Positions 35,617 through 42,066 of a stretch of DNA of 42,089 bases are shown piece after piece (the stretch's first letter is position 1; each line of letters begins with the position of its first letter). The notes under the pieces were generated by a model that worked only from the letters and a program-made list of their open reading frames with translations, had not been told where the DNA came from and searched no databases. The position numbers were made by a program, and so were the translations under genes. The DNA is from Actinomycetes bacterium (GTDB lineage: Bacteria; Actinomycetota; Acidimicrobiia; Acidimicrobiales; Bog-793): contig JAJYVX010000006.1 of the NCBI GenBank assembly GCA_021791795.1, positions 1-42,089 on the forward strand, given 5' to 3'.

Positions 35617-36729
35617 TCAGGCCTCCACCACGTGGAGTGCGTGGTCCACCATGTTGCACGGGATCGGGCCTTCGTCGGCCGCCACCACGATGTCCTCGAT
35701 GCGTGCCCCGAAGCGCCCTCGGAGATAGATGCCCGGCTCGACCGAGAAGGCGTGCCCACTGACGAGCACCTCGTCGTTGCCCGCCACCATGTAGGGGTCC
35801 TCGTGCTCCTCGATGCCGATCCCATGCCCTATCCGGTGGATGAATGCCCCGCCGAAACCGGCGGCATCGATGATGCGCCGCCCGATGGCGTCGACCTCTT
35901 CACATGATGTCCCGACTGTGGCGCCCTTCGATGCGGCTGCCTGCGCCTCTTCGAGGACGTCGTAGAGGTGGCGGAATTCGGGATCGGGCTCGCCGGTGAC
36001 GACGGTCCGGGTGATGTCCGAGCAGTAGCCGGCCGCGTCGTCCAGATGGAGCGTCCCGCCGAAGTCGCAGACGACCGCCTCGCCCGGCCCTATCAACCGG
36101 GAACCCGGCTCGTGGTGCGGGCTCGCCGAGTTCGGCCCGCTCCCGACTATGGCGAAGTTGACCTTCGCATGCCCCTCGTCGACGAGCCGGCGTCCCAGCT
36201 CGGCCGAGACGTCCGCCTCCGTCCGCCCGATGAGTCGGATTTCGCCGCCGAGCAGCGCCGTGGCAACCCGGTCCGCTGCCGCCCCAGCAGCCTGCAGGGC
36301 CGCTATCTCCGTCCGGTCCTTCACGGCACGAAGCGGCGACGTCACCCGACTCGCAGGCAACCACTCGGACCCAGGCAGGAGAGACCGCAGCGCGAGCAGG
36401 TGGACAGCCCACGTCCGGTCGGAAACACCGATGCGGGACGGGGAACCTGCTGCGTGGGCGATCAAGGCGAGCGGGTCCTCCGTCTCTTTCCAGGGCCGCA
36501 TCCGAAAGAGGCTCCCGTCGGTAGCGACACGAGGTGCCTCCAGCTCGGGCACGAAGAGCGTCGCTTCCTCGTCACGAGGGAGCACGAGCATCGTGATGCG
36601 CTCGAGCGGCATCGCCTCGTAGCCGGTCAGCCAAGGCAGGTCCGCACCGAGCGACAAGAGCAGGCAGTCAACCCTGAGCTCGCCCATCCGCCGCCTGACA
36701 CGATCGAAGCGCGCACGCCGCTCGCTCAC
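35617..36729 (-). CDS. M24 family metallopeptidase (Xaa-Pro peptidase-like)
   Basis: VCDFGGTLHLDDAAGYCSDITRTVVTGEPD...IHRIGHGIGIEEHEDPYMVAGNDEVLVSGHAFSVEPGIYLRGRFGARIEDIVV. Confidence 0.94.
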   Translation of the reverse strand: MSERRARFDRVRRRMGELRVDCLLLSLGADLPWLTGYEAMPLERITMLVLPRDEEATLFVPELEAPRVATDGSLFRMRPWKETEDPLALIAHAAGSPSRIGVSDRTWAVHLLALRSLLPGSEWLPASRVTSPLRAVKDRTEIAALQAAGAAADRVATALLGGEIRLIGRTEADVSAELGRRLVDEGHAKVNFAIVGSGPNSASPHHEPGSRLIGPGEAVVCDFGGTLHLDDAAGYCSDITRTVVTGEPDPEFRHLYDVLEEAQAAASKGATVGTSCEEVDAIGRRIIDAAGFGGAFIHRIGHGIGIEEHEDPYMVAGNDEVLVSGHAFSVEPGIYLRGRFGARIEDIVVAADEGPIPCNMVDHALHVVEA

Positions 36730-38474
36730 GCCGTGCCTCCTCCACCACCTACCGCCGCGCCGGCCACGACCACCTCAGCAGCGGAAGCCGGCGCCGGCAC
36801 CGGCACCGGCACACCGGCCGAGGAAGCGGCCCGCCGGGCGTGATAGCTGGAGCGCGTGAGCGGGGAAGCCTCGACGTGGCTGAACCTCATGGCCTCGGCC
36901 GCCTCGCGCAAGGCCACGAACTCGGCAGGTGTCCACCACTTCGCTACTGGCAAGTGCCGCGAGCTCGGCCGGAGGTACTGGCCGATGGTGAGGATGTCGA
37001 CACCGACGGACCTGAGGTCGGCAAAGGTCGAGAGGAGCTCCTCGTAAGTCTCGCCGAGGCCGACCATGATGCTGGACTTGGTGACGAGGCTGGCGCGTTT
37101 CGCCCTGGCGAGGACTGCCAGGCTGCGGGCATAGGACGCCGACGGGCGCACGGCTCTCTGCAGGCGGCTCACCGTCTCGACGTTGTGGTTGAGCACGTCC
37201 GGCCTGGCGGCGAACATCGAGTCGAGCGCAGCTTCGTCACCCTTGCAGTCGGGGATGAGCACCTCGACGGACGTCCCCGGGCACTCCGCCCTCACGGCCT
37301 CGATACACGCCACGAAACCCGCCGCTCCCCCATCGACCAGGTCGTCCCGTGCGACCGCTGTGATGACAGCGTGAGCCAGCCCCATCCGCTTCACGGCAGA
37401 GGCGAGACGTCGAGGCTCGTCGGGATCCGGTGGCAGCGGATGCCGGGTGTCCACCAGGCAGAACCCGCAGGCACGGGTGCAGCGCTCGCCGTTGATCATG
37501 AACGTGGCCGTCCCGTCCGACCAGCACTCCGAGCGGTTCGGGCAGCCCGCCTCCTCGCACACGGTGACGAGCTCGAGGCCCTTCAGCATCGAGCGAAGGC
37601 CGAGCACGTTCGAGCCGAGCCGGACAGGGGCGCGCATGTAGTCGGGCTTGCGCTCCCGGAACGAGATCCCCTGAGCTGCGTCCACCCCGGCGGCGCTGAG
37701 TCGGCGCTCGAGTGGCGTCGCAGGCGGAGGAGGGTTGGGGGAGGGAGTTGGCATCGCTTTGCTGCTCGGACCGCTCTGCGATCTCGAGAAGGCGACGTCC
37801 CTCCGGTCGACCGGCCTCGCCCGGCCGCCGAAGCTGAAGGCCTCCCCGGCGTGCCGTGCGACGAGATCGACGACGTCGCGCATCGCCGCGTCGACCCTCT
37901 CTCTCGCGAGCGAGGTCACCGGCTTGTCCGGGATGCCGCACGGCACGATGTGGCCGAACATCGAGAGGTCCGGATCGACGTTGAGGGCGAAGCCGTGCAG
38001 CGACCGCCCCCGGTCGACCCTCACTCCGATCGCACATATCTTGCGTGGCTCTTCGGCCGAGCCGACCCAGACGCCCGGGTAACCGGCGAGCCGGCCGGCC
38101 GCCAAACCGAGATCGGCGAGCACGTCGACGACGAGCTGCTCGATCCGATGGACGAAAGCCGGTATGGAGCCGGAGGTGACCGGCACGTCGAGCACGGGGT
38201 AGCCGACCAGCTGTCCCGGTCCGTGGTACGTCACATCACCGCCGCGGTCGGCCTTCACGACAGCCGCCCCGGATGATGCGATGGAAGGCAGCAGGTTCGC
38301 CGCCCGCGTCCTCACCCCGCAGGTGTAGACGGGCTGGTGTTCGAGGAGGAGGAGGTAGTCGCCCGAGCGGTTGTCGTGCATCGCCCGCTGCAGCACGGCG
38401 GCCTCTTCGTAACGGACCCGTCCGAGCCAGCGGAGCCGCAGCGGCTCGGGCTCGGGCTCCGGCTCGCGTGTCAC
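36726..38474 (-). CDS. lipB-lipA: LipB-LipA fusion: octanoyltransferase domain followed by lipoyl synthase (radical SAM)
   Basis: One ORF: LipB motifs RGGDVTYHGPGQLVGYPVLDV, KICAIGVRVDRGRSLHGFALNV, PCGIPDKPVTSL; then LipA motifs CEEAGCPNRSECWSDGTATFMINGERCTRACGFC, GLGET, PLTRSSYHA. Both catalytic sets look intact; no stop between them. Confidence 0.93.
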   Translation of the reverse strand: MTREPEPEPEPLRLRWLGRVRYEEAAVLQRAMHDNRSGDYLLLLEHQPVYTCGVRTRAANLLPSIASSGAAVVKADRGGDVTYHGPGQLVGYPVLDVPVTSGSIPAFVHRIEQLVVDVLADLGLAAGRLAGYPGVWVGSAEEPRKICAIGVRVDRGRSLHGFALNVDPDLSMFGHIVPCGIPDKPVTSLARERVDAAMRDVVDLVARHAGEAFSFGGRARPVDRRDVAFSRSQSGPSSKAMPTPSPNPPPPATPLERRLSAAGVDAAQGISFRERKPDYMRAPVRLGSNVLGLRSMLKGLELVTVCEEAGCPNRSECWSDGTATFMINGERCTRACGFCLVDTRHPLPPDPDEPRRLASAVKRMGLAHAVITAVARDDLVDGGAAGFVACIEAVRAECPGTSVEVLIPDCKGDEAALDSMFAARPDVLNHNVETVSRLQRAVRPSASYARSLAVLARAKRASLVTKSSIMVGLGETYEELLSTFADLRSVGVDILTIGQYLRPSSRHLPVAKWWTPAEFVALREAAEAMRFSHVEASPLTRSSYHARRAASSAGVPVPVPAPASAAEVVVAGAAVGGGGGTA

Positions 38475-38487
38475 CGCCGCAACCCAG

Positions 38488-40029
38488 TCACAGCTCGGCC
38501 GACCAGTCCCGCATGGCGATCTCGTCGGCCAGGGCACGGAGGAATGCGGAGGCATACGCCCCGTCGACCGCTCGGTGGTCGAAGGAGAGGCCGAGCATCC
38601 CGACCGAATGGATGGCGATCGCCTCGCTCCCGTCCGGACCGCTGACGACGACCGGCCGGCGCTTCACGCCGTCAGTCGAGAGGATGGCCACCTGGGGCTG
38701 GCTGATGATCGGTGCCGTGAGGAACGTGCCGAACGGGCCCGGGTTCGTGACGGTGAAGGTCCCTCCCACCACGTCGTCGGGAGAGATCCGCCTCGTGCGA
38801 GCACGGGCGGCAAGGTCCGCCATCGCCCGGGCGAGCCCCCTCAGCGACTGCCCGTCCGCATTGCGCACGACCGGGACGATGAGACCTTGGCGGTCGAGGT
38901 CGACGGCGATGCCGAGATGGACGTCACGGTGGATGACGAGCGAGTCCTCCCCGACCGAGGCGTTCATGTGGGGGAAGTCACGAAGCGCGTCGACCAGGGC
39001 CCGCGCCACGAAGGGCAGGTAGGTGAGGCTGATCCCCTCCTCCTCCTTGAAGCGGTCCCTGTACTCCCGCCGCACCTTCTCGATCGCTTCGTAGTCTGCT
39101 TCGACAGCCACGAGCGTGTGTGCAGATGTGGCCTTCGAGCGCACCATGTGCTCGGCGGTGAGCCGGCGGATGTTGGTGAAGGGGACGACCTCGTCCCGCT
39201 CCCCGGGAGCGCTCGGCGGGAACGCCCGCGCGGCGACCGCCGCCGGGGGCGCTGCTGAAGCGCCCGATCCCGGCGCGGGCGCCGGGCGCCCTGTGGAGGT
39301 CGAGGTCGGCGCCCCAACTTGGGCTTGGGAGGCAGGGGACGCCGCGGTACCCCCCGAAGCAGCACGCTGGTCGAGGTACGTGAGCACGTCGCCCCGCGTG
39401 ATGCGGCCGCCCTGACCGGTTCCCGGAATCTGCGAAGGATCGAGGTCGTGCTCGTTGATGAGCTTGCGCACGACCGGCGAGAGCAGCAGAGCCCCACCGC
39501 CGCCTGCACCTCCGGCCTGGGGCTGCGACGCCCGGCCGTTGCCGCCGGGCACGGTGCGGGCCGGTTGTGCGTTGGCGGGAGCCGCTCCGGTGTCCGGGGT
39601 CCGGGCCCCTGTCCCGACGGGAGCAGGCACCGAGTCAACCGCCGCCTCGGGCGGCGGCTCCTCGTTCGCCGCCTCCGCCGTGGCGGGTGCGCCGGCGGCA
39701 GGCGCCGGCTCGGTCGGCTCGGCAGGCTTGGCCGGCTCGAGAGGCGCGGCCTGCTCGACCGCAGGCGTTCCCGCGGCAGCACCCTCGCTGCCAGCCTCCT
39801 CTCCGATGACGGCGAGGCGCGTGCCCACGTCGACGGTCTCGCCCTCGTCCACCAGTATCTCGGTGAGATAGCCGTCCACAGAGGAGGGAACCTCCGAGTC
39901 GACCTTGTCCGTCGAGACCTCGAAGAGCGGCTCGTCCTGTGCGACGGGCTCGCCGACCTTCTTCAGCCAGCGGATGATCGTGCCCTCGGTCACGGTCTCG
40001 CCGAGCTGAGGCATCGTTATGTCAGCCAA
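38488..40029 (-). CDS. sucB: 2-oxoacid dehydrogenase E2 component (dihydrolipoyl acyltransferase)
   Basis: ADITMPQLGETVTEGTIIRWLKKVGEPVAQDEPLFEVSTDKVDSEVPS (one lipoyl domain), PSBD LLSPVVRKLINEHDLDPSQIPGTGQGGRITRGDV, catalytic GLSFDHRAVDGA. Substrate (2-OG vs pyruvate/branched-chain) not certain. Confidence 0.9.
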   Translation of the reverse strand: MADITMPQLGETVTEGTIIRWLKKVGEPVAQDEPLFEVSTDKVDSEVPSSVDGYLTEILVDEGETVDVGTRLAVIGEEAGSEGAAAGTPAVEQAAPLEPAKPAEPTEPAPAAGAPATAEAANEEPPPEAAVDSVPAPVGTGARTPDTGAAPANAQPARTVPGGNGRASQPQAGGAGGGGALLLSPVVRKLINEHDLDPSQIPGTGQGGRITRGDVLTYLDQRAASGGTAASPASQAQVGAPTSTSTGRPAPAPGSGASAAPPAAVAARAFPPSAPGERDEVVPFTNIRRLTAEHMVRSKATSAHTLVAVEADYEAIEKVRREYRDRFKEEEGISLTYLPFVARALVDALRDFPHMNASVGEDSLVIHRDVHLGIAVDLDRQGLIVPVVRNADGQSLRGLARAMADLAARARTRRISPDDVVGGTFTVTNPGPFGTFLTAPIISQPQVAILSTDGVKRRPVVVSGPDGSEAIAIHSVGMLGLSFDHRAVDGAYASAFLRALADEIAMRDWSAEL

Positions 40030-41479
40030 CGTGCAGGCCCCTTCCGGTGAGTGCGAGAACTGTCTCGCCGAACGTCTCGGACAGAGTCGGGTGCGGCTGG
40101 ATGAACGCGGCCACCTCTTCGGGCGTCGCCTCCCAGTTGACGGAGAGATACGCCTGACCCAGCTGCTCGGTCACCCACGGCCCGACCATGTGCACCCCCA
40201 ACAGACGGCCGGCCGACCCGTCGGGGCGCTTCTCGCAGATGACCTTAACCATCCCCTCGGTCTCACCGAGGATCTTCGCCCGGGAGTTGCCGCCGAAGGG
40301 ATCCTTCTTCACGACGACGTCGATGCCGGCGGTGCGGGCGTCCTCCTCCGTCAGACCGACGAAGGCGACCTCGGGGTGGCAGTAGATGCCCCACGGCACC
40401 GCCCCGTAGTTCACCGGCGTGACGCTCTCTGAGAGGATCTGCTTCACGATGACGATGGCCTCGGCAAAACCCACATGAGCCAGCTGTGGCGTAGCGACCA
40501 GGTCGCCCGCCGCGAACACCCCGTCTGGCCCGGTGCGCATCCACTCGTCCACCTTGACGAAGCCCCGCTCGTCGACCTCGACTCCGGTCCCCTCCCCGAG
40601 GAGGTCTTCCGAGAGTGGCCGGCGCCCGACCGAGACGATGACGGTGTCGACGACGACCTGCTCGCCGTCGCCGAAGCGCACCGTCGTGCCGCTCTCGTGG
40701 GGCTCGTGCCCGGAGACGGCGACTCCCGTGCGCACGGTGATGCCCCGCTTCTTGAAGGAGCGGGCTACGACGTCGGCGACGTCCCGGTCACAACCGGGGA
40801 GGAGCTTCGGCAGTGCCTCGAGCACCGTCACCCGGACGCCGAGGTCGGACATCATCGAGGCGAACTCGCAGCCGATCGCCCCGCCGCCGATGACGACCGC
40901 GGAGCGGGGGAGGGACGTGAGCGACAGCACCTCGTCGGAGGTGAGCACGTAGCGGCCGTCCACCGCGAAACCCGGGATCGTCCGCGGCACCGATCCTGCC
41001 GCAAGGACGATGTTGCGGCCGCGTATCCGGCGGAGGGAGCCGTCCGTCGCGGTCACCTCGACGACATGGCCCCCGAGCAGGCGGCCGGTGCCCTCGAAGG
41101 TCTGGTTCTTGCGCTGCCTCATGAGTCCGGAGAGCCCCTTGTGCAGCTGGTCGACGACCTTCTGCTTGCGATCCTGGCTGATGGCGAAGTCCACCGTGGG
41201 CTGGCTCACCTGCACGCCGAACTCCTTCGCGCCCGAGACGGTGCGGTAGACGGCGGCCGTCTCGAGGAATTCCTTGGCAGGGATACAGCCCCGGTGGAGG
41301 CACGTCCCGCCGACCTTGTCCTTCTCCACCACGGCCACCGACAGGCCGGCGGACCCGGCGTAGAGGGAGGTCGCGTAGCCGGCGGGCCCGCCGCCGATCA
41401 CCACTACGTCGAACTCGGCCGCGTCGCCGTCCGCCTGTAGAGACTCTTTCCCACCCGCTCCGGCTCTTGGTTCGCTCAC
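40022..41479 (-). CDS. lpdA: Dihydrolipoyl dehydrogenase
   Basis: FDVVVIGGGPAGYATSLYAGSAGLSVAVVEKDKVGGTCLHRGCIPAKEFLETAAVYRT (redox CxxxxC), C-terminal HPHPTLSE-type motif (IQPHPTLSETFGETVLAL). Confidence 0.96.
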   Translation of the reverse strand: MSEPRAGAGGKESLQADGDAAEFDVVVIGGGPAGYATSLYAGSAGLSVAVVEKDKVGGTCLHRGCIPAKEFLETAAVYRTVSGAKEFGVQVSQPTVDFAISQDRKQKVVDQLHKGLSGLMRQRKNQTFEGTGRLLGGHVVEVTATDGSLRRIRGRNIVLAAGSVPRTIPGFAVDGRYVLTSDEVLSLTSLPRSAVVIGGGAIGCEFASMMSDLGVRVTVLEALPKLLPGCDRDVADVVARSFKKRGITVRTGVAVSGHEPHESGTTVRFGDGEQVVVDTVIVSVGRRPLSEDLLGEGTGVEVDERGFVKVDEWMRTGPDGVFAAGDLVATPQLAHVGFAEAIVIVKQILSESVTPVNYGAVPWGIYCHPEVAFVGLTEEDARTAGIDVVVKKDPFGGNSRAKILGETEGMVKVICEKRPDGSAGRLLGVHMVGPWVTEQLGQAYLSVNWEATPEEVAAFIQPHPTLSETFGETVLALTGRGLHVG

Positions 41480-41490
41480 GTGAGCGCAGC

Positions 41491-42066
41491 CTAATGGCCG
41501 CGCGGCGCCGGCTTGCCGAGAAGGCCGCTCTCGTCGAGCACCGTGAGCACTTCCCTCGCGCATTCCTCGGGCGATCGTCCGACGGTCTTCAACACGACGT
41601 CGGGATCGCGCGGCTCCTCGTAGGGCGACGAGATGCCGGTGAAGCGCGGCACCTCGCCCCGCCTCGCCCTCTCGTAGAGGCCCTTCGGGTCGCGCTCCTC
41701 GCAGACCTCGAGAGGCGTGGCGACGAAGACCTCGACGAAGCCCAGTCCGGCCTCCCTGTGCCGGTCCCGCACCGCCTGACGCCCCGCCTCGAAGGGGCTT
41801 ATGACCGTGACGAGCACCACGTGGCCGATGTCGGCGACCAGCATCGCGACCTCGCCCACCCGCCGCACGTTCTCGAGACGGTCCTCCTCGCTGAAGCCGA
41901 GGTCGCGGTTGAGGCCGGTCCGCAGCATGTCACCGTCCAGCAGGAACGACCTGACCGCGCGCTCGTCGAGCATCGCTTTCAGGCTGGAGGCCACCGTCGT
42001 CTTGCCCGCTCCCGAGAGGCCGGTGAACCAGACGGTGGTGCGGTGCTCGCCCTCGGGGCCGGTCAC
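41491..42066 (-). CDS. cysC: Adenylyl-sulfate kinase
   Basis: TTVWFTGLSGAGKTTVASSLKAMLDERAVRSFLLDGDMLRTGLNRDLGFSEEDRLENVRRVGEVAMLVADIG...VFVATPLEVCEERDPKGLYERARRGEVPRFTGISSPYEEP. True start may lie further upstream, near the window edge. Confidence 0.93.
   Translation of the reverse strand: MTGPEGEHRTTVWFTGLSGAGKTTVASSLKAMLDERAVRSFLLDGDMLRTGLNRDLGFSEEDRLENVRRVGEVAMLVADIGHVVLVTVISPFEAGRQAVRDRHREAGLGFVEVFVATPLEVCEERDPKGLYERARRGEVPRFTGISSPYEEPRDPDVVLKTVGRSPEECAREVLTVLDESGLLGKPAPRGH

Follow-up and report, generated by a model that had tools for sequence, protein, structure and literature searches.

The octanoyltransferase LipB transfers octanoate from ACP to a lipoyl lysine, and the lipoyl synthase LipA inserts two sulfurs into the same group. 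In the window (the whole stretch of 42,089 nucleotides that was analysed), the two enzymes are found in one reading frame. This locus raises the question of whether LipB and LipA are really joined, how far and how anciently the joined form extends in the lineage, and what would be gained by it.

A single frame for LipB and LipA

The minus strand contains an open reading frame of 609 amino acids (36726-38555) with zero stops between the LipB and LipA parts, which bears out the proposal of the first-pass annotation that LipB continues into LipA without a stop. The ATG at 38555 would create an overlap of 68 nt with the upstream E2 gene and the homology to relatives starts only near residue 37, so that the GTG at 38474, 13 nt beyond the stop of E2 (38488), is the likelier start, as the annotation had also chosen. 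The residue numbering is that of protein P0001. The features of the locus are the following:

36726..38474, minus strand: LipB-LipA fusion gene (GTG start 38474, TGA stop 36728-36726, 582 codons plus stop)
37851..38399, minus strand: LipB octanoyltransferase domain (LplA-B_cat), from Pfam and NCBIfam
38040..38042, minus strand: LipB catalytic Lys, K172
37938..37940, minus strand: LipB catalytic Cys, C206
37659..37838, minus strand: linker, residues 240-299; the model shows a short strand after LipB and the helix PLERRLSAAGV before LipA
37752..37754, minus strand: internal in-frame ATG
36819..37658, minus strand: LipA lipoyl synthase domain (LIAS_N and radical SAM), from Pfam, NCBIfam and structure matches
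37524..37559, minus strand: CX4CX5C, ligands C333/C338/C344 of the auxiliary 4Fe-4S cluster, from the alignment of relatives
37458..37481, minus strand: CX3CX2C, ligands C359/C363/C366 of the radical SAM cluster, from the alignment of relatives
36843..36854, minus strand: RSSY motif, serine ligand of the auxiliary cluster (role according to PMC12246082)
38488..40029, minus strand: E2 2-oxoacid dehydrogenase acyltransferase with N-terminal lipoyl domain, directly upstream, likely substrate
40022..41563, minus strand: dihydrolipoyl dehydrogenase (E3, Lpd), upstream of E2
35617..36729, minus strand: M24 (Xaa-Pro) peptidase, whose GTG start overlaps the stop of the fusion (GTGA)

The gene encodes a complete LipB followed by a complete LipA in one frame. 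The Pfam domains are located at residues 53-235 (LplA-B_cat), 300-338 (LIAS_N) and 357-513 (Radical_SAM). LplA-B_cat (PF21948) scored 141 bits against a cut-off of 27, whereas LIAS_N remained just below its cut-off of 27 in the protein scan (25.4 bits) and passed it in the genome scan (28.1 bits). The family models assign both halves: 153.5 bits for the lipB equivalog TIGR00214 (cut-off 83.55), 194.3 bits for PRK14345 (cut-off 155) and 345.5 bits for the lipA equivalog TIGR00510 (cut-off 310.25).

The relatives aligned here are 141 non-redundant loci of the same class. In the LipB part, K172, C206, the RGG loop (R104-G105-G106) and H111 are invariant in 141 of 141 relatives. The same holds in the LipA part for C333, C338, C344, C359, C363, C366, R568 and S570; this part also holds the sequence RSSYHA. 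The residues K172 and C206 correspond to the Cys/Lys catalytic dyad of LipB, represented by Cys169/Lys135 in E. coli (PMC9307952), and the serine of RSSY is a ligand of the auxiliary cluster in lipoyl synthase (PMC12246082). Both active-site sets had been claimed to be present: the Lys/Cys pair and CX3CX2C are indeed found, whereas the auxiliary-cluster motif is CX4CX5C and not the CxxxxxC that had been given. Since the catalytic residues are invariant in 141 sequences, both halves have evidently been kept under selection for catalysis.

Proposed function, linker and domain arrangement

The product of the gene is very probably a single bifunctional enzyme that lipoylates proteins de novo and that arose by a fusion which occurred once in the ancestor of the Acidimicrobiia and was kept. 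The LipB domain would take octanoate from octanoyl-ACP onto Cys206 by means of the Lys172/Cys206 dyad, and would then pass the octanoyl group to the lysine in the lipoyl domain of E2 or of H-protein. Using radical SAM chemistry, the LipA domain would insert sulfur at positions C6 and C8 of the transferred octanoyl group. The computed evidence consists of the single frame, the intact active sites, the single clade, the dehydrogenase neighbourhood, the linker elements and the confident two-domain models. Presumably the protein is translated as one product and both activities are exerted in vivo. The two steps would therefore be held in fixed proportion and close together by one chain. The first-pass annotation had proposed that octanoyl transfer and sulfur insertion are coupled. 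Physical coupling follows from one polypeptide; a faster or channelled transfer, in which LipB would pass the octanoylated lipoyl domain on to LipA more quickly because the two are joined, is inferred. In E. coli, LipA and LipB reportedly associate with E2.

The genomic context places the fusion beside its likely substrate, since the E2 with its lipoyl domain and Lpd lie upstream. Where 3 kb or more of upstream sequence was available (48 loci), E2 is the immediate upstream neighbour in 43 and Lpd precedes E2 in 42. The genome of the window encodes several lipoyl-domain proteins, and its scan gave a single LIAS_N match, so the fusion protein is probably its only LipA. On the downstream side, the M24 peptidase adjoins the fusion in 81 of 151 loci; no link between this enzyme and lipoylation is apparent.

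AlphaFold2 with sequences of the class gave a model of the window protein with a mean pLDDT of 92.2 and a pTM of 0.91; values of pLDDT below 50 were limited to five residues (236-240) and to the C-terminal tail. A relative at 42% identity reached a pTM of 0.88. The model matches the LipA of Mycobacterium tuberculosis (5exk) with a TM-score of 0.92 of the target and its LipB (1w66) with 0.79, and no relevant match was found in the viral structure library. Together, the two high-pTM models suggest a defined, though not necessarily fixed, arrangement of the domains.

The linker may nevertheless be a passive flexible tether, where the gain is equal dosage or stability of the two enzymes and there is no hand-over between active sites. 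This variant of the bifunctional enzyme, which does not exclude the explanation given above, has a substantial chance of being right, although one short of even. It agrees with the linkers of the Acidimicrobiales, whose middle varies in sequence and in length (38-122 aa), and with the drop of pLDDT to about 51 in the middle of the linker. However, this variable middle is flanked by the conserved segments RxDVxW (after LipB) and RLxxRLxxAGV (before LipA), and the pTM is high in two distant members. Moreover, in a sub-clade of other families the linker measures 61-65 aa in every member and displays the strong consensus AFxRGxGRxxxFxVDxLxxxGTFS...GRLPGEP. This sub-clade comprises the loci L119, L120, L122, L123, L125-L128, L132, L138, L165 and L166, and includes genomes of about 1.1 Mb (f53). 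A more ordered version of the bifunctional enzyme can be proposed tentatively: in Acidimicrobiia the domains might be held in an ordered arrangement, with the octanoylated lipoyl domain passed from LipB to LipA without release and the conserved linker forming part of the machine.

The Pro-rich character that had been attributed to the linker holds for a stretch in this genome, to which it is peculiar; across relatives, proline represents 6.7% of linker residues versus 5.8% in the domains, a slight excess. The GC content of the linker by codon position (0.79/0.59/0.77) displays a periodicity of the coding type.

It is improbable that the fusion is made as, or cut into, two proteins, with an internal start or a linker protease freeing LipA and the joined frame serving as a transcriptional convenience. 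Some in-frame ATG, GTG or TTG codon does occur in every linker, in 70 of the 141 linkers such a codon (mostly GTG) stands behind a purine-rich stretch, and proteolytic cleavage could also take place after translation. Against this, an in-frame ATG with a Shine-Dalgarno sequence was detected in 9 of 141 linkers, compared with 19 in frame +1 and 5 in the remaining frame, and its position varies. No conserved internal LipA start with a Shine-Dalgarno sequence was found among the 141 linkers. The ATG at 37754, for which the first-pass annotation had reported no obvious Shine-Dalgarno sequence, is present and none was found; it is not conserved, and the separate LipA suggested from it finds no support across the 141 linkers. 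Furthermore, two working products should let stops arise in the linkers of some lineages, yet none is observed in any genome read, and the constant, conserved linker of the sub-clade also speaks for the bifunctional enzyme translated in one piece.

Distribution and origin of the fusion

The class was surveyed from a species-representative collection (80 loci) and from a genome search that supplied many more. At each locus, the domains were placed by tblastn and we asked whether both share one stop-to-stop frame. After removal of duplicates, LipB and LipA were found in one stop-free frame in 141 of 141 class loci with both domains readable, a second, split copy in genome G106 being the exception among class loci. 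Thirty extra genomes were picked because the profile match in them fell into two or three separate pieces, a likely hiding place of split genes; all 30 again displayed one frame, for a total of 171 loci. The fusion is present in single-contig genomes, including G036, G040, G061, G072 and G084. It spans at least 45 family-level groups of the class and is therefore neither recent nor local. No match was obtained in 17 of the 394 genomes of the class, which may be fragmented assemblies or genomes missed in the first look. From the named carriers, which include Candidatus Microthrix (Neomicrothrix) parvicella, we infer that the class is Acidimicrobiia, the other carriers being known by code.

That two adjacent genes were joined by an error of assembly or sequencing, including the loss of a linker stop through an indel that had been raised as a possible refutation, has a negligible probability: the assembly of the window does consist of 351 contigs, but the frame is intact in all 171 loci of many assemblies, single-contig genomes among them. 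A stop-free in-frame linker would arise by chance in one genome with a probability of about 0.28 x 1/3, and the shuffled linker remains open in 32% of trials. A chance open linker is thus plausible in one genome but not across 141 relatives, even when their lack of independence is taken into account.

The other objection raised beforehand, split homologs in close relatives, comes down to the second copy of G106. This split lipB-lipA pair lies on a 5 kb contig (C83, L200/L141), displays 44-50% identity and accompanies the fusion in the same genome. In the LipA tree, its LipA clusters with sequences from outside the class, so the pair is likely a contaminant contig or the product of a transfer. 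The fusion is also carried by three public records (L064, L079 and L080) whose names place them in the Acidobacteriota or Thermoanaerobacterales. A transfer beyond the class is less likely for them, since the LipA tree places them inside Acidimicrobiales sequences; they are probably misnamed metagenome bins.

The genome searches for the fusion covered the Actinomycetota, the phylum of the window. In other Actinomycetota the LipB and LipA matches are separate. Twenty such regions were collected for comparison outside the class, and both genes could be read in 16. All 16 readable split loci, nearly all from outside the class, contain two genes; lipB comes first in 14 of them, 12 of these with lipA adjacent. 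In the careful tree of the concatenated domains, a single branch separates the fused sequences from the others, with an ultrafast bootstrap of 94 and an SH-aLRT value of 94. The same branch is supported at 95 in the quick concatenated tree, at 92 by LipA only and at 53 by LipB only; the support for a single clade is moderate overall and weak from LipB alone. As the fused form lies on one side of one branch, a single fusion event is most likely, and an adjacent lipB-lipA pair is its most likely source because the outside loci are mostly adjacent with lipB first. Such a pair of the Actinomycetota would have fused once in the ancestor of the Acidimicrobiia and been retained since. The trees and the survey support a fusion that is ancestral to the class and spread nearly throughout it.

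Comparison with known systems

Unfused lipB and lipA genes, from other Actinomycetota or from E. coli, specify the same two enzymes, in the same order and with the same reactions as the fusion. They display no counterpart of its conserved linker segments, which were not found by eye in split LipB or LipA relatives. The lipBA operons, for example in Shewanella (PMC4398509), also have the same enzymes and order, but there a stop and a new start separate the two polypeptides. Among solved structures, the closest are the LipA (5exk/5exi) and LipB (1w66) of M. tuberculosis, each of which matches its own half with 46-50% identity in the fold search and also strongly by sequence. These two structures were solved apart, and no PDB chain spans both domains.

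The NCBIfam family NF053790 (LplA_LipA_fuse), a model of 606 positions, resembles the fusion in that lipoyl synthase follows an LplA/LipB superfamily member, but its N-terminal part is a lipoate-protein ligase, unlike the LipB of the window. Membership of this family was ruled out on score and on domain: the window protein obtained 347 bits against a cut-off of 800 and aligned from model position 330 on, through LipA only. The Lpl(AB)/Lpl(BA) ligase fusions and LipS1/LipS2 also belong to prokaryotic lipoate assembly and include a gene fusion within the same pathway; in the passages on fusions in that survey, ligase domains are joined to each other, not a transferase to a synthase, and a LipB-LipA fusion was not found there (PMC10332631). 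A look-up of terms in a broad survey of lipoate assembly did not find one either (PMC3904984). No description was found in the open-access literature, most subscription journals being outside the scope of the search. The class-wide LipB-LipA architecture is apparently unreported, while its chemistry is ordinary; it may be listed without comment in domain-architecture databases (InterPro and UniProt were outside the search).

LipB and LipA act in turn on one protein-bound lysine. A class-wide natural fusion with a conserved linker is therefore an experimental object for asking whether the two enzymes cooperate on the lipoyl domain, and it could yield a single-chain structure of both steps as well as a one-gene tool for protein lipoylation. 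The fusion may also serve as a shared derived marker for this class, which is largely known through metagenomes; databases with one function per protein will overlook one of the two activities there.

The genome of the window also contains a second lipoate assembly system in an sHdr-like cluster (L198, contig C84:15000-28641, 561-12338). The cluster is composed of HdrC, HdrB and HdrA-like proteins, an LplA-like protein, a GcvH-like lipoate-binding protein, LipS1, a lipoate-protein ligase and LipS2, followed by two open reading frames that resemble by eye an electron-transfer flavoprotein pair. The scores of LipS1 (220.8 bits) and LipS2 (179.8 bits) are below the NCBI cut-offs of 230 and 270, respectively. 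The fused LipB-LipA and this predicted LipS1/S2 system coexist in one genome.
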